64,000 nucleotides of DNA. Origin: Hyphomicrobiales bacterium. GTDB lineage: Bacteria > Pseudomonadota > Alphaproteobacteria > Rhizobiales > JACESI01. The first letter of the stretch is position 1. Every line of letters begins with the position of its first letter. A program made the position numbers and the translations under genes. Under the pieces are notes generated by a model. That model was not told the DNA's origin. It did no database searches and saw nothing but the letters and a program-made list of their open reading frames with translations. Shown here piece by piece: positions 47,607 through 62,078 of the stretch. The stretch is taken from the NCBI GenBank assembly GCA_039973685.1, contig JBDWKL010000053.1, forward strand, positions 1 to 64,000, written 5' to 3'.

Positions 47607-50198
47607 TTACAGCACTTCAGAACCATCCAGCACTTCTTTCACCTTGGTCGCCAGTTGCTTCAAAGAGAATGGCTTCGGCAAGAAGTGGAATTTCTCCCCT
47701 TCTGCAAGGTGTTTTTCAAATGCTTCTTCTGCGTAGCCTGACACAAAGATGATCTTCAAATCTGGGCGCACTTTACGCAGCTCACCCAACAAAGTCGGGC
47801 CATCCATTTCCGGCATCACAACGTCAGAGACAACAAGGTCAATTTCGCCTTCCACCTCTTCCATCACCTCAAGAGCGTGAACACCACTGGAGGCTTCATG
47901 AACGGTATATCCGCGCGCTTGGAGGGCACGGGCGGAAAACGCACGAACGGCTTCTTCATCTTCCACCAAAAGAATGCTGGCAGAACCAGATAGATCACGT
48001 GGCGGCTCCACCACTTGAACTTCTTCCTCGACCTCTTCTTGAATGTGGCGTGGCAGCAAGATTTTAAAACTTGTGCCCGTCCCAATTTCACTGACTGGAT
48101 AAACATAGCCACCAGTTTGCTTGATAATGCCATAAACAGTCGCAAGCCCAAGCCCTGTCCCCTTGCCCACATCTTTGGTCGAGAAGAACGGTTCAAAGAT
48201 CTTAGCCATGACCTCTTCCGTCATGCCCGTGCCTGTATCCGTGACATTGATCACCACATATTCAGCAGCAATCAGCCCCTTCATTTGCAGTGGGTCACAC
48301 TCTGCAGGTGTAAGATTGTAAGTTGAGATAGTTAGATCACCGCCATCCGGCATCGCATCGCGGGCGTTGACGGAAAGGTTGATGATCACTTGCTCAAGCT
48401 GGTTGAGGTCAGCCTTCACCGCCCATAAGTCGCGGCCATGAGTGACAGATAGACGAACATTTTCACCCAGCAAACGCTCAAGCAAGATACTCAAATCTTC
48501 AATCACATCACGAAGATCAATAACCGTTGGTCGCAACGTTTGGCGACGTGAGAATGCAAGCAACTGACGAACAAGTCCGGCCGCACGGTTTGCATTATTT
48601 TTGATGTTCATAATGTCTTGGAACGACGGGTCACTCGGTCCGTGATTTTGCAGCATAAGGTCTGAAAACCCGATGATCGCCGTCAACATGTTGTTAAAGT
48701 CGTGCGCGATACCGCCAGCAAGCTGGCCAATTGCCTGCATCTTCTGGCCTTGGGCAAATTGTTGTTCAAGCGCGCGTTGCTGTGTGGTGTCTATCGCATA
48801 AACAACCGCCACTTCTTGGTCCGATGGACCTTGCGCTGCGATGCCTGTTACCGCACTGATGAACAAACGCGCATTGCCTTGCTCTTCGCCAGTCAAGGCT
48901 GCATCAACCGGTTGAATCTCGCTTTGCTGATCCATTGCCGCCCCAATAGCGGATGTCAGCTTTTCATGATCCGTGTCAGAAATCAGGTCGAGCAGTTGCA
49001 CTTGATTGTCTTCCAAGGCTCCCGTTTGGAACTGACGAATGAAAGCGGCATTGGCACGCGCCAATCGACCTTGGCGGTCAATGCCTGCAATCGCAATCGG
49101 TGCAGAATTAAAGAACCGTTGGAACCGAGCGCCGCCATCAACATTGGCGTCGTCCATTTGCTCAATATTTGAACGATTAAGAACAACGGTCCGCGTTGGG
49201 CCTGGCGCACCATCAGCTTTAAACGGTGTCAAATGCAGCAATCGAACAGGCAGGCTTTGGCCACTGCGTTTAACAAAATCAAGATCAATAGTCTCAGTAC
49301 GCACTTCGCCTGGAGATGCCTTCACCGCATTCAACAGCGCAGCGCCATCGCCACGTACGATGCTGTGAAGATGCAGTTTACCCGGTTCAAACTCAGTGAG
49401 GTCTAGCCCCAACCAACCAGCAAGCGTTGCGTTGAGATAAGTGATCTTGCCATCAGATTGTGCGGAGAAGAAACCAGCCGGAGCGTGATCAAGATAATTG
49501 ATGACATTTTGCAATTCTTGGAAGGCAAACTCTTGGTCTTCGCGATCGCGAGTAATGTCTTCGACACGCCAGATAGTTCTGGCTTCCATGTCAAGTTTAT
49601 CGTTGTTCGCTGAACGCACTGGACGCACCGAAATACGGTACCAACGCGGTTCGTTCGTATCTTGGTTTGTTTCACCAATCGCATTTTCCAAGCGAACTTC
49701 TTCGCTAACAGGACGCCCTTCACTGGCCGCAACAGAAAGCCTGAAAATGGGTTCTGAAAGCCCCTCTTCCAAACCAAATACCCGCTCTACAGAGCGAATG
49801 TCTTGCTCCGTCACCGCACCAATAAGTTTGGCATAGGTGAGATCTGCAAAAATCATCTGGCCATCTTTGTTGGTGATGGTGTGTGCACCTTCTAAAGATT
49901 CCAAAAACGGATATTCATGGCGGCGCACTGGCGCACCTTCGCCAAAGCGTAACAAACCAACGGCTGCTGCAAACAAGGTGAAAATACCGAAAACAGCTAA
50001 AACGCCCAAAATGAATAGCAAAAATGGGCGCGCCACTTCTTCACCAAGATAGATGAAGGTGCCAACGAGGGCCGCAATGAGAATGCCAATCAGGAGGAGC
50101 AAACCAACCCCTGATTTCTTCAACTGCATGCGCTGTTCGCCATAAGCAGGTACCAAGTTGTACTCGGTTTTTTCATTCTTGTTTTCGTTGGCGTTCAC
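47607..50198 (-). CDS. cckA: Cell-cycle hybrid sensor histidine kinase CckA
   Basis: The 863-residue protein has two membrane helices (about residues 29-49 and 56-77), PAS-like domains and a HisKA domain with the phospho-acceptor His in GGIAHDFNNML near residue 500. An HATPase domain (NLSVNARDAMP, DTGTGM, GTGLGLATVYGI) and a C-terminal receiver with Asp in LVVSDVVMPEMDG near residue 791 follow. This is the CckA order. CckA phosphorylates ChpT, which passes phosphate to CtrA and CpdR. I prefer the GTG at 50198, with AGGG about nine bases upstream; the longer frame starts at 50264. It follows flhB on the same strand, with 160 bases between. Confidence 0.92.
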   Translation of the reverse strand: MNANENKNEKTEYNLVPAYGEQRMQLKKSGVGLLLLIGILIAALVGTFIYLGEEVARPFLLFILGVLAVFGIFTLFAAAVGLLRFGEGAPVRRHEYPFLESLEGAHTITNKDGQMIFADLTYAKLIGAVTEQDIRSVERVFGLEEGLSEPIFRLSVAASEGRPVSEEVRLENAIGETNQDTNEPRWYRISVRPVRSANNDKLDMEARTIWRVEDITRDREDQEFAFQELQNVINYLDHAPAGFFSAQSDGKITYLNATLAGWLGLDLTEFEPGKLHLHSIVRGDGAALLNAVKASPGEVRTETIDLDFVKRSGQSLPVRLLHLTPFKADGAPGPTRTVVLNRSNIEQMDDANVDGGARFQRFFNSAPIAIAGIDRQGRLARANAAFIRQFQTGALEDNQVQLLDLISDTDHEKLTSAIGAAMDQQSEIQPVDAALTGEEQGNARLFISAVTGIAAQGPSDQEVAVVYAIDTTQQRALEQQFAQGQKMQAIGQLAGGIAHDFNNMLTAIIGFSDLMLQNHGPSDPSFQDIMNIKNNANRAAGLVRQLLAFSRRQTLRPTVIDLRDVIEDLSILLERLLGENVRLSVTHGRDLWAVKADLNQLEQVIINLSVNARDAMPDGGDLTISTYNLTPAECDPLQMKGLIAAEYVVINVTDTGTGMTEEVMAKIFEPFFSTKDVGKGTGLGLATVYGIIKQTGGYVYPVSEIGTGTSFKILLPRHIQEEVEEEVQVVEPPRDLSGSASILLVEDEEAVRAFSARALQARGYTVHEASSGVHALEVMEEVEGEIDLVVSDVVMPEMDGPTLLGELRKVRPDLKIIFVSGYAEEAFEKHLAEGEKFHFLPKPFSLKQLATKVKEVLDGSEVL

Positions 50199-50357
50199 GG
50201 CACTTCGCCCTTTAAGGTAAAAATCAACTGATTCGATCTGATTTCGTTGGCATATTGTATGCAAGCGAAACCTTTAAGTCGCGGTAAAAGCGTAACCATA
50301 GTTCAGTGAAATCGTCGCTATTCACGGAATTTTTAATTCCAACTTGATTTGAGTGCT

Positions 50358-53722: not shown

Positions 53723-54027
53723 AGCGTTGCTCCCCAGCAATACGCTGCAAAAATCGAGGTGATGTCGATAAAACGAGGCTGCAAGGAGGCGAACCATAAT
53801 TCGCCAAGCCATCATCCTAAACGCACCACCAACTGGGCAATTTTTGCCTAGTTATAGTTAACAAAGTCTTAAAATTTCGTTTTTTATCAGAATTTGTCGA
53901 TAATTTCGCAACACTTTGCAGCTTTTCAAAAAACAACCATTGCGCGAAAGTCCATTATTTGCGTTATGACTATTTGGCGGAAAGATGCTGCGCACAAGAT
54001 AAGCTTTCCGAAAAATGGGGATTAAAA
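53723..54027. other. Divergent flagellar promoter region (flgB / fliO)
   Basis: About 300 bases between two divergent flagellar operons. It contains one perfect CtrA box (53858-53872) and A/T-rich flanks on both sides suitable for promoters in each direction. No gene is apparent. Confidence 0.6.
53858..53872. promoter_or_regulatory. CtrA box, TTAA-N7-TTAA
   Basis: TTAA at 53858-53861, seven bases, TTAA at 53869-53872 is an exact match to the CtrA binding consensus known from Caulobacter and other alphaproteobacteria. It lies between the divergent flgB and fliO operons, so phosphorylated CtrA could control both. The upstream kinase CckA is encoded in the same cluster. Confidence 0.7.
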
Positions 54028-54699
54028 ATGATAGAGTGGTTTAACAGCGTTTTGGGTGAAGCTGTCGGCACATATGCCGCCATCGGGGTTGGCCTTCTAA
54101 TAGTCATCGTATTGATCATCATATTATTGCGCGTATTACGCTCATTTACCGGCGGTATGTTTGGTAACAAGAGCCAGAACAGACTTGGCGTTATTGAAGC
54201 AGCAGCCGTTGATAACAAACGCCGCCTCGTGCTTGTTCGCCGCGATAATGTTGAGCACCTCATTATGATTGGTGGAACCAGCGACATTTTGGTTGAAGCT
54301 GGCATAAATCGCTCAGCAGCAGGGCCACGACCGAGCCAACCACCAGCACCAACGGGAGCTGCAAGAATGGCCGCTACCCCTACCCCTGCAGCACCCACGC
54401 CTACACAAAGTGCCGCGCCACAAGCTGCTGCACAACGTGCGCCCACGCCGGCGACACCTGCACCAGCGCCGGTTCAACAAGCACCTGCACAACAAGCAAA
54501 AGCACCTGCCCAACAAGCCCCAGCGCCAAAGCCAGCAGCACCGGTAGCACCTCAGCCAACACCGGCTGCACAACCGCAACAAGCAGCTGTACCACCCAAA
54601 ACAACAACACCAGTGATAACGCCACCTAGCGACTCAGCTAAGGTTGGGAACGATATGGATCGTCTTCTCAACCAAATAGCTGGGGACTCTAAGGGATAA
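54028..54699 (+). CDS. fliO: Flagellar biosynthesis protein FliO
   Basis: The 223-residue protein has one membrane helix (about residues 18-38) and then the FliO domain: GVIEAAAVDNKRRLVLVRRDNVEHLIMIGG in outline. The C-terminal ~110 residues are a low-complexity Ala/Pro/Gln tail. FliO helps assemble FliP into the export gate. The ATG at 54028 has GGGG about eight bases upstream. Its stop overlaps the fliP start (TAATG). Confidence 0.9.
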   Translation: MIEWFNSVLGEAVGTYAAIGVGLLIVIVLIIILLRVLRSFTGGMFGNKSQNRLGVIEAAAVDNKRRLVLVRRDNVEHLIMIGGTSDILVEAGINRSAAGPRPSQPPAPTGAARMAATPTPAAPTPTQSAAPQAAAQRAPTPATPAPAPVQQAPAQQAKAPAQQAPAPKPAAPVAPQPTPAAQPQQAAVPPKTTTPVITPPSDSAKVGNDMDRLLNQIAGDSKG

Positions 54700-55559
54700 T
54701 GTGGCTTCCGCGATGTAAAAACACGCGGCAAACAACAAAACAAACAGACGAAATTGATCGTAACTCAGGCCCTTTTAAGGACCGTTTACGGCAATTTCGC
54801 AATTTATCCACGGCAATCTTTCGCCATGGTGCAATTGGTTTTCTGGTTTCATTTTGTGTTTGCACAATTGCAATAACCGGCGCCTACGCGCAGGGGATTA
54901 CGATTGATTTTAATGAAGGTACCTCGGTCACCGAGCGTGCCATACAAATCATTGCTTTGGTCACTGTTTTAAGCCTCGCACCGTCGCTGCTTGTGATGGT
55001 GACATCATTCACCCGTATCGTGGTGGTTTTATCCCTTTTACGGTCAGCTATTGGACTACAAACAGCACCGCCCAACTCTGTGATGATTGGTCTGGCGTTG
55101 TTTCTTACCTCTTTCATTATGATGCCGACGCTTGAAGAGGCTTATAACGCCGGCCTTGATCCATTGATCAAGGAAGAGGTTGAACTCAGTGAAGCAATGG
55201 TCAACGCGTCAAAACCCTTTCACGCCTTCATGCGAGGCAATGTGCGTGAAAAGGACTTGGAACTGTTTCAAGATATGAGCGGGGTGGATTTACCCGACAC
55301 GCCAGAAGAGCTTGAAATGCGCGTCTTGATCCCGGCCTTTATGATCAGCGAACTTAAGCGCGCCTTTGAGATTGGGTTCTTGCTCTATCTGCCCTTTGTC
55401 ATCATCGACTTGGTGGTCGCCTCCATCTTGATGTCGATGGGTATGATGATGCTACCGCCGATTGTGATTTCACTACCGTTCAAGCTAATTTTCTTTGTTT
55501 TGGTGGATGGTTGGCACTTGGTCGCAGGTAGCTTGGTACGAAGCTTCAGCAGCGGTTAG
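54699..55559 (+). CDS. fliP: Flagellar export gate protein FliP
   Basis: The 286-residue protein has a long N-terminal signal region (hydrophobic stretch at about 45-65, ending GAYAQG) and the FliP core: SLAPSLLVMVTSFTRIVVVLSLLRSAIG, GLALFLTSFIMMPT, VLIPAFMISELKRAFEIGFLLYLPF in outline. FliP forms the core of the export gate. The start overlaps the fliO stop. It is convergent with the giant TPR gene, 24 bases away. Confidence 0.96.
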   Translation: MWLPRCKNTRQTTKQTDEIDRNSGPFKDRLRQFRNLSTAIFRHGAIGFLVSFCVCTIAITGAYAQGITIDFNEGTSVTERAIQIIALVTVLSLAPSLLVMVTSFTRIVVVLSLLRSAIGLQTAPPNSVMIGLALFLTSFIMMPTLEEAYNAGLDPLIKEEVELSEAMVNASKPFHAFMRGNVREKDLELFQDMSGVDLPDTPEELEMRVLIPAFMISELKRAFEIGFLLYLPFVIIDLVVASILMSMGMMMLPPIVISLPFKLIFFVLVDGWHLVAGSLVRSFSSG

Positions 55560-55583: not shown

Positions 55584-58500
55584 TTAACTTGATGCAGCCT
55601 TTGGCGCAGCAGGTTGATTATCGTTTTGAACAGCTGGACTTGGCGTTGCCTTACGCGGTTTTGCCAGTCGCGCACGTGGCGTTAAATAGCGTCTGCGATA
55701 ATCGCGAAGGAAGGAATCGGTGGTGCCGATATTCAAGATTGAATCAACCGCGACATCCCGTTCAAAACTACGATTGGTCAGAGGTTTAGTCAAAATACCA
55801 AATGTCCCAGCATCCGTACTTTCAGACATTTTCTGACTAAATTTTTGGTTCAACCGATTAAGAGCAAAATCATCGTCTGCAAGAGAGTAAGCGATCGCTG
55901 CACGCATGATATCTAAGCGCTCATGAGCTTCCAACGGTGCAACATCAGACCAGCGGCCACCATGCGCTTTCTCTAACAGCTCCCCTGCATCACTCCATCT
56001 GCGTGCATCCCAATTCACATTGGCACGCAGTCGATTCACATCATCACCAGTCAATGGATCAAGTAGTTCAAGAGCAACATCAAATCTGTTTATCTCAGAT
56101 AAGGCATAAGCTTCGACCAAGCGACGCTGACGACGCAAAGAGGCAGGCAAGCTGGCCGAGCGTGATTTTTGCAATGTCGTCAAAGCACGGTGAGGCTTAT
56201 TGTCCAAAAGCTGGACGACCGCCAAGTCAGCAGCAACGCGAGCGCGTGCAACACCGTTTAGGCGTTTTTCAACTTGGTGCTCTAACAGTTCAGCTGCCTG
56301 TGGCAATAAATCAAGATCGATCAAACGGCGGGCAAGATTACGCACGATCTCATCACCAATGCGACCAATCGGCATTAGATTGCGAAAATCATAATAGAGG
56401 CTCAAAGCATCTACTGAATCCAGTCCATCCGCTTTGCCACCATGAAACAAGCTAATAAACAACTCTTTCATATCATCTTGAAGGGCACGGGTAATGGGTG
56501 ATTCATTATTAGAAATCGCAGCTGTCTCAACCAATTGAAAAGCCCGCCGATAATTCTTTTCAACCGCAAGAACCTTACCCAAGAACCTTAATGCTGATAG
56601 CTCCAAATCATCATTGCGCCAAACGGCAGCGAAGGCTTCAAGTTCATCAATCGTTTCTTGATTGTTTGCTTTACCAGTTTCATGATTAAGCATTGCAAGG
56701 TGCAAACGTGCCTCGGCTTGAACGCGAATATCGTCAATGGCGTTAGCACGGTTAAAGAAAAAACGGGCGTCTTCAAGACGCCCTTCAGCAAGTGCTAATT
56801 CTCCTTGCAGCACTTCATATTTTCCCCGTTGCTGGTCTTTCGCATTCCGAAGGATAATATTGCCCAGGTACCGTTTCGCATCATTGAGATCATTAAGTTT
56901 CAAGGCGGCTGTTGCCGCCGACAAGTAGAACGATTGTTTGGTATCGGCATCATAGGATGCTAATTTTGACCGCCCAAGCGTCGCATTCTTTCGAGCAATT
57001 TCCCATTTACTCGCACCTGCTGCCGAAATCGTTCGCCATACGGCGGCATCCTGATCTTTTGAATACGATTCAACCGCTAGCGTATTCAATGCCTCCTCAT
57101 TACGAGCCATGGCAATTTGGGCAGCCGCTTTCATCAAAACAAACAGACGTTTGTTCTCCAGCAACGGCTGGCTTTTGATCGCTCGCTCCAAAACAGCCAG
57201 CGCTTCTGGGCCATAGTTGTTGGCCACATAAAACTCCGCCAATTTCATTTGAGCTTTTGGTAAATCTTCTTTTCCACTGGTAATAACGGCCTTAATAAAT
57301 TCGCCCTCTCTCCGCAGGAAAGCGGCTGGCTCCGCATAATTTGCCGGATCATATTCAAGCGGCACATCATACCATTCAGCCTGTTCAGATTTTCCACTCG
57401 AAGAAGAGCGAAGGTTTTTTACAGGGGAAAGATTCAATGAAGTTTCTGAAAAAATCTCGACATATTTCTTATGGCGTTTGACTTTAATATCATCGGCGAG
57501 TGTTGCCACAGCAAAGGCATGCGCCGATGGCAACATCTCAACTTTGACAAAGCTCTGCGCTCGCAAAAGCCCTCGGGCAGGCGCATGAGCCAACAAGATA
57601 TGCAAGGTATCACCAACAATTGGATCAACAATTTCTACAACACCAGCAGAATTTTCCAGAGGAACTTGGAGGAATAACCCACCCTTTGCATTCACGCCAC
57701 GTGATACAGAAAGCCGTTCAGAAGCACGGATGATTGAGTTTCCAATTGAAATCACCCAGTTGTTCTCTTCAACCGCAGACGAAGCAAGCTGTGCACTTGG
57801 CATTCCAATTCGGATTGCTTTGTACTCGCCTTTTTCAACGACATCGATAGAGCGCACAAAATCGCCCAACAACGTCTCGATTGCAGAAACGTCGATGATG
57901 TTGTCCGTTTTAACCGCAATCCAGACAGCTTTATCACGCCTGAACACAGCGGTCGGTGTTTCGGTTTCGAAGGGGAAGACGAGGCGAAGTGCGTCTTTAC
58001 TCGGATTGAGTGACGCTTCAACGGCGGAAAGGCCTTCTATCTTCTTTTGGTCGGCATCAACAGATTCTGGATTGCGTTTAGCATTCTCATCCTTCAAGCC
58101 ATCCAAAGCTTGTTCCTGTTCAACCGTCACATCTTCAGAAGATCCAAACAGCTCTAGAGCGCTTTCACGATTTTCATTAGATTTACCGGCACTTTGAGGC
58201 TGCTGCTCATTGCCCGTCCGCTCTTCTTTATCTTCGGTAGCAGGTGGCGCAACAGGCAGCTCAGCTAGCGCACGTTCGCCACCATTATTTTCTGTAAATG
58301 AAACATCCTTCGCTCCTTCAGGCACACTCGGCAAGCCACCTATTAAAAGCGGAACATTCACGGCGTTATCATTTTTCCCAATCAACTTTTCATGGGTAAC
58401 ATCAATGATGTACGATTCTCCATCTGCGTATGAACGTACTTTGGATTTTCTATCCATTCTGATTCTTACAATGGTCGTATCGTCGGCGGTTGCCCCTTGA

Positions 58501-59237
58501 ACTTTCTTGATCAACGCAGGCAAGTCAGCATTGATGGGTGCAAAGTCGAAGGTCCCTTTGCGATCAAACTCTAAAATTGCATCATCTTCTTCACGTTTAA
58601 AGGCCGCGCTATAAGGCACATTCCAATTGAAGACGAAGCGGGTAAAGGTCGGATGACGCCCCACGCGCATTTCAAACTTGGGTACAACACCATTTTCTTC
58701 CTGAGCAATGGCATTTTGTTCTGCAAGTTCAAGTGCATCTTCTGCGCGATTTTCTAATTTCCGAACGATCGCTTCAGGAATTGATGGATTGGGACCCTGC
58801 CAATTGCCCGGTAGGAAATCGACAAACAAATGTTCGCCCGCCGCCATCGTATTAACGCGAACGCCGACATTTAGTGCGAACCTCAGTACCCCACCCTCTG
58901 GATCACGACGTCCAACCAAAACATAATCAGAAAGACCACGCACATGCCGTTCAACATCGATTTCCAACGGTTCGCTCAGGCGAATAACCAGAACGTTGTC
59001 ATCTGTTGAGATACTGTGTTTGATGAATTTAGTTCGGTTTCGAAGCTGAATAGCTAAACGACCATGGCCATTCTTGGTGCTCACGGTAACGTTCGTTTTT
59101 AATGGCACAGAAATCTGCGCAAAAGCGGTTACCGATTGAAACAGAAAAAAGATAATAAGAAGCAACGACCAGACAAAAACTGCCCCGCCTTTACGATTGC
59201 TTTGATAAGCGTTTGCTCGAACTCGATACAACAACAT
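55584..59237 (-). CDS. Large periplasmic TPR protein of the flagellar locus
   Basis: The 1,217-residue protein has a signal peptide (hydrophobic residues about 22-38, ending TAFAQ). An N-terminal beta-rich, AMIN-like region follows to about residue 300, with a Glu/Asn-rich linker around 310-400. From about residue 650 there is a long helical repeat region with TPR-like units (QMKLAEFYVANNYGPEALAVLERA; RGKYEVLQGELALAEGRLEDARFFFNRA in outline). It is the last gene after fliL-fliM-DUF6468-motE-like and is therefore probably a flagellar or stator-associated scaffold in the periplasm. I know of similar unnamed proteins in this position in related bacteria, but not of a defined function. Confidence 0.82.
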   Translation of the reverse strand: MLLYRVRANAYQSNRKGGAVFVWSLLLIIFFLFQSVTAFAQISVPLKTNVTVSTKNGHGRLAIQLRNRTKFIKHSISTDDNVLVIRLSEPLEIDVERHVRGLSDYVLVGRRDPEGGVLRFALNVGVRVNTMAAGEHLFVDFLPGNWQGPNPSIPEAIVRKLENRAEDALELAEQNAIAQEENGVVPKFEMRVGRHPTFTRFVFNWNVPYSAAFKREEDDAILEFDRKGTFDFAPINADLPALIKKVQGATADDTTIVRIRMDRKSKVRSYADGESYIIDVTHEKLIGKNDNAVNVPLLIGGLPSVPEGAKDVSFTENNGGERALAELPVAPPATEDKEERTGNEQQPQSAGKSNENRESALELFGSSEDVTVEQEQALDGLKDENAKRNPESVDADQKKIEGLSAVEASLNPSKDALRLVFPFETETPTAVFRRDKAVWIAVKTDNIIDVSAIETLLGDFVRSIDVVEKGEYKAIRIGMPSAQLASSAVEENNWVISIGNSIIRASERLSVSRGVNAKGGLFLQVPLENSAGVVEIVDPIVGDTLHILLAHAPARGLLRAQSFVKVEMLPSAHAFAVATLADDIKVKRHKKYVEIFSETSLNLSPVKNLRSSSSGKSEQAEWYDVPLEYDPANYAEPAAFLRREGEFIKAVITSGKEDLPKAQMKLAEFYVANNYGPEALAVLERAIKSQPLLENKRLFVLMKAAAQIAMARNEEALNTLAVESYSKDQDAAVWRTISAAGASKWEIARKNATLGRSKLASYDADTKQSFYLSAATAALKLNDLNDAKRYLGNIILRNAKDQQRGKYEVLQGELALAEGRLEDARFFFNRANAIDDIRVQAEARLHLAMLNHETGKANNQETIDELEAFAAVWRNDDLELSALRFLGKVLAVEKNYRRAFQLVETAAISNNESPITRALQDDMKELFISLFHGGKADGLDSVDALSLYYDFRNLMPIGRIGDEIVRNLARRLIDLDLLPQAAELLEHQVEKRLNGVARARVAADLAVVQLLDNKPHRALTTLQKSRSASLPASLRRQRRLVEAYALSEINRFDVALELLDPLTGDDVNRLRANVNWDARRWSDAGELLEKAHGGRWSDVAPLEAHERLDIMRAAIAYSLADDDFALNRLNQKFSQKMSESTDAGTFGILTKPLTNRSFERDVAVDSILNIGTTDSFLRDYRRRYLTPRARLAKPRKATPSPAVQNDNQPAAPKAASS

Positions 59238-59295: not shown

Positions 59296-59946
59296 TTACC
59301 CGCCGATTTTTTGGAGTTTTCTTTTATCTCGCGCTGAATTTTTAGAAATTGACTGCGCAGCCATCTCCACTGTAAGGCGCTCAGCAGCCTTTACATCCAT
59401 CTCAGCAAGCACCGCCGACATTTTGCGAGGGTTCATAGAAGTCGCCAAACTATAGAGTACGTTCAACGATAGAGCGTTGAATATCTTCGCTGCATCTTTT
59501 GGCTTCATGCTTTCATAAATGATCACCAAGTCTTTGGCGCTTTGTTTACTGGATTTACCCTCTGGTCCTTCGTCGTCTTCTTTTTGCTTTTTGAGGTTTT
59601 TGATTTGCGCTTTTAATCGTTTTTCTGCTGCAGCAAGAAGCTCCTCGCGCAGTTTCAGATCGCGCTCACGCGTTTCCAACGCCTCCCGACGGTCACCTAA
59701 TCGATTGACCAAAGCATCCCGGCTGCTTTTATCAGCGCCTAGGTCAGCAGTTACATCACGAGGCGCCGGCTTTTCTTTCTTTGCAGGCTTTTTTTCTGCT
59801 TCAGCATCGGCGTCTTTTTTATCAGCATCTTGTGCGCTTGCAGAAGAAACTGCGATGTCATCGAAAGCGCCACTGGCAGCCAGAGCAATCAATTTAATGG
59901 ACAAGAGAGCAAAAGCTGCAACAGCACATAATTGCAATAGGCGCAT
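59296..59946 (-). CDS. MotE-like flagellar periplasmic protein
   Basis: The 216-residue protein has an N-terminal membrane anchor or signal (residues about 1-25). A highly charged Lys/Glu coiled coil follows (RLGDRREALETRERDLKLREELLAAAEKRL in outline, residues about 78-125). It ends with a MgtE_N-like domain, YESMKPKDAAKIFNALSLN and MNPRKMSAVLAEMDVKAAERL. MotE of Sinorhizobium stabilises the motility protein MotC in the periplasm; this gene is likely its counterpart. It lies 2 bases after the DUF6468 gene and is followed by the large TPR gene. Confidence 0.85.
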   Translation of the reverse strand: MRLLQLCAVAAFALLSIKLIALAASGAFDDIAVSSASAQDADKKDADAEAEKKPAKKEKPAPRDVTADLGADKSSRDALVNRLGDRREALETRERDLKLREELLAAAEKRLKAQIKNLKKQKEDDEGPEGKSSKQSAKDLVIIYESMKPKDAAKIFNALSLNVLYSLATSMNPRKMSAVLAEMDVKAAERLTVEMAAQSISKNSARDKRKLQKIGG

Positions 59947-59948
59947 GA

Positions 59949-60398
59949 TTAGCTCCCTGACCGACGTAAGGCATTGATGCGGGCTGTCGCTTCAGCCGCC
60001 AATTCGCTTACGGCACGCGGTTGCGAAGTGGTTGGTCTTGAAACAGCACGGCGTGGAGAAGGTAGCGGCTTATTAATGGAGCCTGCCTGCGTAATCGTAG
60101 CGATACGATGCACCAATTCCTCGCCTTCGCTCAAATTCGCACGCAACTCAACATTAAGCTTTTCAGCTTCGCGAACATGCACACCAAGATGTTTTAGGTT
60201 TTCGTGAGAGGTCACTTTAAGACCATTAATCGCGCGCTCAGCTAGCTCAGTCGCCGTCATCAATTCAGCAATCGTCAAACGCAGTGCGTTTTCTTCTAGC
60301 TTCAAGCTCTTCAATTTACCGCTCAATACATAGCAATAAACAATGGTAGCAGCCAGCAGGACAATCACTAATCCTTCGATAAAGATACCAGACGTCAT
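59949..60398 (-). CDS. DUF6468 flagellar-locus protein (PflI-like)
   Basis: The 149-residue bitopic protein has one membrane helix (about residues 6-25), then a helical, Glu/Leu-rich segment (LKSLKLEENALRLTIAELMTATELAERAINGL in outline) and an Arg/Pro-rich tail. It overlaps fliM by four bases. The position after fliM corresponds, as I recall, to Caulobacter pflI, a protein needed for correct flagellar positioning. The family match is moderate and the role is inferred from place. Confidence 0.78.
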   Translation of the reverse strand: MTSGIFIEGLVIVLLAATIVYCYVLSGKLKSLKLEENALRLTIAELMTATELAERAINGLKVTSHENLKHLGVHVREAEKLNVELRANLSEGEELVHRIATITQAGSINKPLPSPRRAVSRPTTSQPRAVSELAAEATARINALRRSGS

Positions 60399-61558
60399 GT
60401 TGCACTTGCCTCCATTTCAGATATGGCTTTTTCGTAGCCATTTATTGTCATTTTTTGTGGTTTGAGCTCGCGCGTCACCTGTACGGATACTTTATCATCG
60501 ATGCGACCAATTTGGCCCTCGCTCATGGTGACATTGCCAACCCGCAATTCAACCGTCTCGCTTGGGTCTTGGCGCAGAAGAAGGGTCTCGCCGACTGAAA
60601 GGTCCATCACTTCAGAAAGTGGAACTTCTTTTTCAAATAAAATGGCATCGACAGTCACATCGGCAGCATTGGCTTGTGTTGCAAGATGGCGCTCCCAATC
60701 AACATCGCGACCAAAGTTGTCACCAACAAACATTTGCAGCAGCAAATGGCGGATAGGTTCAATTGTTTCATAAGGAAGAAGCAGCTCAACATCACCACCA
60801 CGGTCTTCAATATCAATACGCAACCGAACAAGAACCGCCGCATTGGCAGGGCGAATGAGAGCTGCAAATCTTGGATTTGTCTCCATCCGGTCCAAAGTAA
60901 AGGTAACAGGTGTCACTGGTTCGAAAGCTTGTTGAGCATCTTTCAACAAATGCCCAGCTAATTGTTGGACCAGACCAAGTTCAATTGCTGTGTAAGGGCG
61001 GCCTTCCACCCGTGCTGCACCTGAAGAATTACCACCACCAAGCAGAACGTCGACAATCGTGTAAATCAGCAATGAATCGGTCGTCAAAAGACCAAAGTTA
61101 TTCCACTCTTCAGCTTTGAAAACCGATAGAATTGCCGGCAGTGGAATAGAATTTAGATAGTCACCAAAACGCACTGACGAAATGGAATCGAGAGATACCT
61201 CAACGTTATCTGATGTCAAATTACGTAGCGATGTCGTGGATAATCTTACAAGACGGTTGAACACCACTTCCAACATTGGAAGGCGCTCGTAAGAGACCAA
61301 CGCAGAACTGATAAGCGCACGCACACCATTTTGGTCTGCGCTTAAAAGCTCATCAGCCCGAAAGCCCATAAGGGCATCAATTTCTTCTTGAACGAGCAGA
61401 CGATCCGCATTTTTATTCGAAGCTTCATCGTCGTCGCCATCCATCAAGCTCGACCATTGAGCCGTCAGCGATTGGGCGTTCTCAGCACCCTGCTCTTCTA
61501 GCGCCTCACCCCACGCGGCGGCTAAATCGTCTTCTTCAAAATCATCTTCCTCAGCCAT
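60395..61558 (-). CDS. fliM: Flagellar motor switch protein FliM
   Basis: The 387-residue protein has the N-terminal switch segment LLVQEEIDALMGF, the family core with LLTTDSLLIYTIVDVLLGG and GRPYTAIELGLVQQL, and a C-terminal SpoA-like domain (LSVGETLLLRQDPSETVELRVGN in outline). FliM forms the C ring with FliG and FliN and binds CheY-P. It is preceded by fliL and overlaps DUF6468 at its end (ATGA). There is an extra acidic extension of about 45 residues at the N-terminus. Confidence 0.95.
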   Translation of the reverse strand: MAEEDDFEEDDLAAAWGEALEEQGAENAQSLTAQWSSLMDGDDDEASNKNADRLLVQEEIDALMGFRADELLSADQNGVRALISSALVSYERLPMLEVVFNRLVRLSTTSLRNLTSDNVEVSLDSISSVRFGDYLNSIPLPAILSVFKAEEWNNFGLLTTDSLLIYTIVDVLLGGGNSSGAARVEGRPYTAIELGLVQQLAGHLLKDAQQAFEPVTPVTFTLDRMETNPRFAALIRPANAAVLVRLRIDIEDRGGDVELLLPYETIEPIRHLLLQMFVGDNFGRDVDWERHLATQANAADVTVDAILFEKEVPLSEVMDLSVGETLLLRQDPSETVELRVGNVTMSEGQIGRIDDKVSVQVTRELKPQKMTINGYEKAISEMEASAT

Positions 61559-61577: not shown

Positions 61578-62078
61578 TTATTGGATTAGAATTTCTTCGA
61601 AAAGAATTTTGCGAACTTCAACTGGATAAACCGCGATATTAATGCGTCTTTGCAGCTCTTCCTTCAGTCGGAACATACCAGCTGAGCCTTCAATATCTGT
61701 TGTACGAAGCTCGCGCAGATAGACCTGAAACGCATCCAAAACACGCGGCATTAACGGTTCAATTTTTGAAATCTCACCTTGATCGCGCAATTCAAGCGTT
61801 GCCTTAAGCTTCAAGTACTGTTGGCGGCCAGCGACATTTTCTAGATTAACGGTAATGGCTGGAAGAGGAAAGAACACCACAGGTTCAGGTGCCTCAATTT
61901 TCTCTTCAGTCCCAGCGACTTCTTCTGGTTCAGCAAATGGATCCAGAATAAAGAATGCCGCACCGCCACCGATCAGAAGCAATGCAACCACTATTATCAG
62001 TATCAGCTTTTTCTTGCCACCTGAGGAACCTTCTTCATCATCAAGAAGTTCATCACCTTCAACAGCTTCGTTCGCCAT
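61578..62078 (-). CDS. fliL: Flagellar basal body-associated protein FliL
   Basis: The 166-residue protein has an acidic N-terminus, one membrane helix (KLILIIVVALLLIGGGAAFFIL, shown in part; about residues 24-45) and the periplasmic FliL domain: FFPLPAITVNLENVAGRQQYLKLKATLEL in outline and VYPVEVRKILFEEILIQ. FliL surrounds the stator and affects torque. It is the first gene of the operon running to the giant TPR gene. Confidence 0.95.
   Translation of the reverse strand: MANEAVEGDELLDDEEGSSGGKKKLILIIVVALLLIGGGAAFFILDPFAEPEEVAGTEEKIEAPEPVVFFPLPAITVNLENVAGRQQYLKLKATLELRDQGEISKIEPLMPRVLDAFQVYLRELRTTDIEGSAGMFRLKEELQRRINIAVYPVEVRKILFEEILIQ

Follow-up and report, generated by a model that had tools for sequence, protein, structure and literature searches.

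A 1,217-residue AMIN- and TPR-containing protein encoded beside fliL and fliM in a Hyphomicrobiales bacterium is a probable MotK/FssB-type spoke of the flagellar motor

A probable motor spoke in the fliL-fliM operon

The window analysed here is a 64,000-nucleotide stretch of contig JBDWKL010000053.1 (assembly GCA_039973685.1) from a Hyphomicrobiales bacterium of the Alphaproteobacteria. At 55584-59237, on the minus strand (59237 to 55584), it carries an open reading frame (ORF) for a 1,217-residue protein with an array of tetratricopeptide repeats (TPR), and this protein is in all likelihood the MotK/FssB of its bacterium, presumably exported and acting in the periplasm as a spoke of the flagellar motor. 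The sequence-only reading of this DNA had proposed a large periplasmic scaffold for the motor or stators, which is now the best-supported view of the protein, given its family, its operon, the co-occurrence with FliM and PflI, homologues adjacent to motAB and a structural match to a Campylobacter scaffold. That reading had also stated that the protein had no defined function, which no longer stands: relatives have been described as MotK (PMC10954123), as FssB/CC_2058 (PMC7885107) and as PflA-like spokes (PMC11870540, PMC13023049).

The ORF is real. Its product is encoded near full length and stop-free, at 57-58% identity, in the three genomes of the same genus that were searched, which argues against a chance ORF, and the plus strand of the same interval is full of stops.

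Relationship to MotK and FssB

MotK of Cereibacter sphaeroides is described as a periplasmic protein with AMIN and TPR parts that is required for rotation and sits at the flagellated pole, a location dependent on MotA2/MotB2; it binds MotE and, more weakly, MotB2, and motK mutants assemble flagella that are paralysed (PMC10954123). In Caulobacter crescentus, deletion of fssB (CC_2058) is likewise reported to give paralysed flagella, as does deletion of motB (PMC7885107). MotE has been treated as the E-ring protein FlgY and MotK, MotC and CC_2058 as PflA-like, with the proposal that the PflA-like spoke meets the MotE/FlgY E-ring (PMC11870540, PMC13023049).

The window protein has the features of this group: an AMIN-type domain, a C-terminal TPR region and a gene beside motE in a fliL/fliM/pflI group. 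As described for MotK, it combines a putative signal sequence, an N-terminal AMIN-type fold and C-terminal TPR with a gene in the fliL-pflI-motE group (PMC10954123), and it resembles FssB, a secreted TPR protein, in its TPRs, a signal-like N-terminus and a gene beside a motE homologue, which is CC_2059 in Caulobacter (PMC7885107). It is larger than C. sphaeroides MotK, for which 652 residues and a single AMIN-like domain are reported, with motA lying between the motE and motK genes (PMC10954123). The window protein has 1,217 residues and, besides its three AMIN-type domains, a fourth beta region; the motA and motB genes of its genome lie on another contig (C21). A MotK-sized homologue of 655 residues (L116), encoded in a Cereibacter-Fla2-like gene order (fliL-fliM-motE-x-MotK), matches the window family strongly, at 3e-29 with phmmer and at 1.7e-70 with the family profile, A1. 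By fold, by operon and, through this stand-in, by sequence, the window protein thus very probably is an ordinary new member of the described MotK/FssB family with its general role.

Domain architecture

All segments of the gene are given on the minus strand. The signal peptide of the sequence-only reading stands as far as inspection goes: residues 1-40 (59118..59237) contain a hydrophobic peak at 19-33 and an A-F-A|Q-like site near residue 40. The AMIN-like beta region of the same reading was right as to type, but is not a single region, as three AMIN-type domains and a fourth beta region are found. AMIN-type domain 1 spans residues 44-143 (58809..59108), domain 2 residues 187-283 (58389..58679) and domain 3 residues 404-500 (57738..58028). 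Between domains 2 and 3 lies the acidic linker, residues 286-402 (58032..58382), with 25 D/E against 12 K/R and mostly predicted disordered, the predicted local distance difference test score (pLDDT) being mostly below 50. The fourth beta region, residues 503-602 (57432..57731), was delimited in the models and is not AMIN-like by profile (hhalign below 2% to each AMIN module).

Two AlphaFold2 models were used, one of residues 40-1217 (m4104e7abd07f; mean pLDDT 81.7, predicted template modelling score (pTM) 0.49) and one of residues 41-612 (mean pLDDT 84.9, pTM 0.46); as pTM is below 0.5, the placement of domains relative to each other is not to be trusted in either. In these models the three AMIN-type domains share one strand-helix order, and a 29-residue helix follows the first. 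By hhalign, modules 1 and 2 are related at 98.3%, 2 and 3 at 97.6% and 1 and 3 at 93.4% (97.3, 96.9 and 39.7%, respectively, with a smaller alignment), which suggests from sequence profiles that the three arose by internal duplication. Domain 2 superposes on the AMIN domain of AmiC with Z 12.0 and a root-mean-square deviation (rmsd) of 2.0 A over 100 residues, and on the B2 domain of PilQ with Z 10.6 and rmsd 2.5 A over 100 residues, compared with Z 7.2 for the best unrelated structure. This one-to-one superposition on solved AMIN domains covers domain 2, and domains 1 and 3 are assigned by their homology to it. The AmiC and PilQ superpositions stem from a second look by structural realignment and not from the Foldseek ranking, in which PilQ of 3jc8 came first with the beta model and was the sole match at E<=0.001 (6.7e-5), with AmiC at 0.26. 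The PilQ model 3jc8_Qa spans several modules (190 residues, Z 11.8), with an rmsd of 20.9, so that the modules of PilQ and of the window protein are not arranged alike. The likeness to PilQ, which is described as having AMIN1 and AMIN2, and to the amidase AmiC thus concerns the AMIN fold; unlike them, the window protein has no Pfam match to secretin or amidase domains up to E 1.

Sequence searches with the 1,217-residue protein gave sub-threshold Pfam matches only, mostly TPR-like and none to AMIN, and two sub-threshold NCBIfam matches (SctY chaperone, PorW/SprE); among the 29 members of A1, AMIN is weakly matched by Pfam in three, at best with 0.013.

The long TPR array of the sequence-only reading was recovered at residues about 637-1190 (55668..57329), where the model shows helix pairs, TPR structures match at Z up to 19.8 and relatives have TPR matches in Pfam. 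Its most conserved part is residues 911-1010 (56208..56507), with an LYYDFRxLxPxGxxGD-type motif: among 106 sequences, 32 of its 100 columns are conserved at >=90%, versus 3 to 12 in other folded regions. Of 15 distant homologues, 12 show an LYYDFRELTP..GD-type motif that can be recognised by eye; it is weak in L125, and neither of the two Azospirillum sequences shows it on inspection. The patch is a candidate docking site for MotE or a stator.

The A1 alignment comprises 29 of the 30 loci of the first homologue search, the fragment L028 being omitted and L001 replaced by the window. The 106 sequences derive from 110 homologues (L001-L030 and L032-L111), from which L001, L028, L078, L084 and L110 (window copy or partial) were removed and to which the window protein was added. 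For the beta region the 106 were thinned to 75, of which 70 were aligned as A3; L081, L097, L100, L104 and L107 were omitted without a criterion.

Structural comparison with PflA

With the whole model, the top chain of the PDB in Foldseek is 9hmf_K, from the periplasmic scaffold of the Campylobacter jejuni motor (E 2.1e-11 over 909 columns, the next row being at 9.1e-9). PflA of C. jejuni and Helicobacter is described as having an N-terminal beta-sandwich likened to AMIN, a linker and a long TPR superhelix, an order that the window protein may share; it differs in having one beta-sandwich and in binding the PflB rim. VIA-align on the whole model returned a list taken up by other TPR proteins and speaks neither for nor against PflA. 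At the sequence level, phmmer against PDB sequences gave one chance-level match only, profile A3 none at E<=1, and no Campylobacter chain was among the sequence matches listed. Profile A1 did find 15 PDB sequences at E<=0.01, which were set aside: TPR proteins of generic or designed type, LpoA, a kinesin light chain and a subunit of the ER membrane complex.

Operon and gene neighbourhoods

As the sequence-only reading had it, the gene follows fliL, fliM, a DUF6468 gene and a motE-like gene, which are directly upstream on the same strand: fliL at 61578..62078 (3.4e-18), fliM at 60395..61558 (1.4e-59), the DUF6468 gene at 59949..60398 (3.7e-17), labelled PflI by position as in PMC10954123, and the motE-like gene at 59296..59946. 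The latter encodes 216 residues of the FlgY/E-ring family, with matches to MgtE_N (1.1e-4, 23.1 bits against a Pfam cut-off of 25.9) and to the FlbB collar (0.0063), both below their cut-offs. The 1,217-residue gene also closes the operon, as had been proposed, since the fliO-fliP pair is convergent to it and fliP (54699..55559, plus strand, 5.6e-80) ends 24 bases away.

This order recurs in relatives. Neighbourhoods were taken from the 80 best stretches among at least 519 related ones, so the counts apply to near relatives. Of the 80 titled loci, 69 extend 4 kb or more upstream; in 65 of these, FliM, PflI and MotE are each encoded upstream on the same strand, and in 63 FliL is. On the downstream side, 71 loci have 1.5 kb of sequence, and 57 of them carry a convergent fliP. 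In other genomes the setting differs: Azospirillum brasilense and A. oryzae have the homologue immediately ahead of motA-motB, and in Erythrobacter aureus and Sphingobium it comes shortly after motE. A MotB-like gene directly precedes it in G239, G118, G142 and G180, as well as in G141, where the MotB match is weak (6e-6).

Of note, one genome (G038; L122, L133, L016) has two flagellar systems, one with a MotK-family gene and the usual FliM, the other with a divergent FliM and a gene after motB, where MotC would be expected. Such a MotC-position gene also occurs in G031, G033 and G047. The proteins at this position differ greatly in length, e.g., 876 residues at L131:10673-13303 versus 388 at L134:6485-7651, and align over the shorter.

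Distribution of the family

Homologues occur in 36 of 61 genomes (the bacterium itself and 60 relatives), and these 36 are exactly those with DUF6468 over the cut-off; FliM is found in 39, and the three with FliM and no homologue (G031, G033, G047) all have a divergent FliM. Across the Alphaproteobacteria, at E<=1e-15, a homologue is present in 153 of 289 genomes, namely in 145 of the 160 with FliM versus 8 of the 129 without (Fisher 2.5e-53, kinship ignored); at E<=0.001 the figures are 148/160 and 15/129. In a sample of 200 genomes of the phylum, every A1 match better than 2.9e-7 falls within the class, and the matches outside it (14 of the 200 genomes, best 2.9e-7) were rejected as resembling other TPR proteins. 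Within the bacterium's own genome, the match that ranks after the protein itself is at E 3.4, and phages gave no match at 1e-5. Profile A1 thereby joins the large Hyphomicrobiales protein, shorter homologues of Sphingomonadales and Azospirillum and the one with a Cereibacter-like gene order into a single class-wide family that tracks FliM and PflI. In at least five class members (G199, G185, G289, G317 and G147 among the matches listed), one or two stops lie inside the match, owing to a pseudogene or an assembly error.

The number of AMIN modules found by profile varies across the 15 distant homologues: 3 proteins have three, another 2 have two, 7 have a single one and the remaining 3 have none. 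The 655-residue MotK stand-in is among those with none, and since an AMIN fold is modelled in MotK (PMC10954123), the profile probably misses some modules and these counts are lower bounds. One module is found in Azospirillum, and a 977-residue homologue from G074, encoded in a fliL-fliM-motE-MotK order, has one AMIN-like and one beta4-like region. As three of the 15 have three modules, this number is not peculiar to the window's genome.

Proposed role

As a spoke, the protein may act as follows. Its C-terminal TPRs, most conserved at 911-1010, would dock to the E-ring of MotE that surrounds the MS-ring; the solenoid would run outward beside FliL and the MotAB stators; and the AMIN modules, with their flexible linker, could grip peptidoglycan or neighbouring subunits. 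The spoke would thereby keep MotAB recruited and unplugged, and a flagellum lacking it would be built and would not turn. E-ring docking through the conserved patch and the targets of the AMIN modules are less certain than the family assignment and general role. The conserved TPR patch and the variable AMIN set are the parts to target for mutation.

A further, doubtful idea is that the spokes of alphaproteobacterial motors bring an outer anchor of their own, with AMIN modules in tandem on a flexible linker taking the place of the separate PflB rim of Campylobacter, and gain or loss of modules tuning the radius of the stator ring or its grip; behind it lies the variation from one module by profile in Azospirillum to two in others and three here. 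A literature search found no description of a three-AMIN flagellar protein, although Extended Data Fig. 12 of a preprint, which gives beta-sheets per homologue, may already show it.

Several observations weigh against a MotK/FssB-type spoke or the evidence for it. The homologue is missing from 15 of the 160 FliM genomes and present in 8 of the 129 without FliM at E<=1e-15, a threshold chosen after inspection of the list (12 and 15, respectively, at E<=0.001), and generic TPR proteins reach about 1e-7 with profile A1 in other genomes. Matching was the ground on which the distant homologues were retrieved, and their scores therefore cannot serve as an independent test. The named proteins, C. sphaeroides MotK and C. 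crescentus CC_2058, were compared by description, the bridge being the genome and gene order of the stand-in L116. The match to 9hmf_K has a TM score of 0.18-0.25, 10% identity and an rmsd of 39, as flexible solenoids may give, and 281 other chains share its range of E<=0.001 (282 in all), the rows shown being mostly unrelated TPR proteins; that this chain is PflA is probable, judging from a length of 773 residues that fits mature PflA. Four of the 69 loci (L034, L049, L082 and L083, two of them from Bradyrhizobium) have no flagellar gene detected on the stretch. Finally, binding of MotK to FliL2 was reportedly not seen in C. sphaeroides (PMC10954123), and C. jejuni is reported to swim still when FlgY is lacking (PMC13023049), so that the window protein may be essential for some reason other than E-ring docking.

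Alternative explanations

Among the alternatives, descent as an orthologue of rhizobial MotC to which AMIN domains were added is unlikely. MotC of Sinorhizobium meliloti is likewise a periplasmic, TPR-rich partner of MotE, and a review calls MotC and MotK homologues despite their great divergence; according to that review, however, MotC has no AMIN domain, and it is encoded after motB, whereas the window gene follows the motE-like gene. In favour of such an orthologue, the three FliM genomes without a homologue (G031, G033, G047) have a gene at the MotC position, as has G038 in its second flagellar cluster; against it, G038 holds both genes, one per cluster. Moreover, hhalign against the four MotC-position proteins gives 5% (E 0.0078, 115 columns), for which TPRs alone could suffice and some ORF starts are uncertain, and profile A1 finds two of the four (0.0016 and 0.09), the other two not at E<=10.

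It also seems quite unlikely that the protein is a periplasmic assembly factor, or a chaperone client, serving the stability or delivery of stator parts rather than a structural spoke. MotC and MotE were first described as assembly-type factors or a chaperone pair, S. meliloti MotE having been proposed as the chaperone of MotC; MotE is reported to be unstable without MotK in C. sphaeroides (PMC10954123), and no tomogram of a MotK-containing motor with and without the protein was found cited in a review. Against such a role, MotK lies at the flagellated pole in dependence on MotA2/MotB2 (PMC10954123), and the top structural match of the window protein is a chain of a motor scaffold (9hmf_K). 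A general peptidoglycan-binding envelope protein that merely happens to be located in a flagellar operon is very improbable. PMC10954123 ascribes peptidoglycan binding to the AMIN domain, and the four loci lacking a flagellar neighbour and the eight FliM-negative genomes carrying the gene would fit this idea, but the tight co-occurrence with FliM and DUF6468 and the paralysis of mutants of the relatives FssB and MotK (PMC7885107, PMC10954123) argue otherwise.

Other features of the window

An Rfam search of 46-64 kb gave no match, no tRNA was found across the window, and promoter and terminator scans did no better than shuffles. The window has two exact matches to the form of a CtrA site, taken as TTAA-N7-TTAA, and one of them, TTAACAAAGTCTTAA, lies at 53858-53872 between the divergent flgB and fliO genes; such sites are not above chance (24 in the window with at most one mismatch, versus a chance mean of 28). 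Directly downstream of flhB, the minus strand at 47607-50264 encodes a hybrid histidine kinase (PAS, HisKA, HATPase and receiver domains), which we take to be CckA-like from its architecture.

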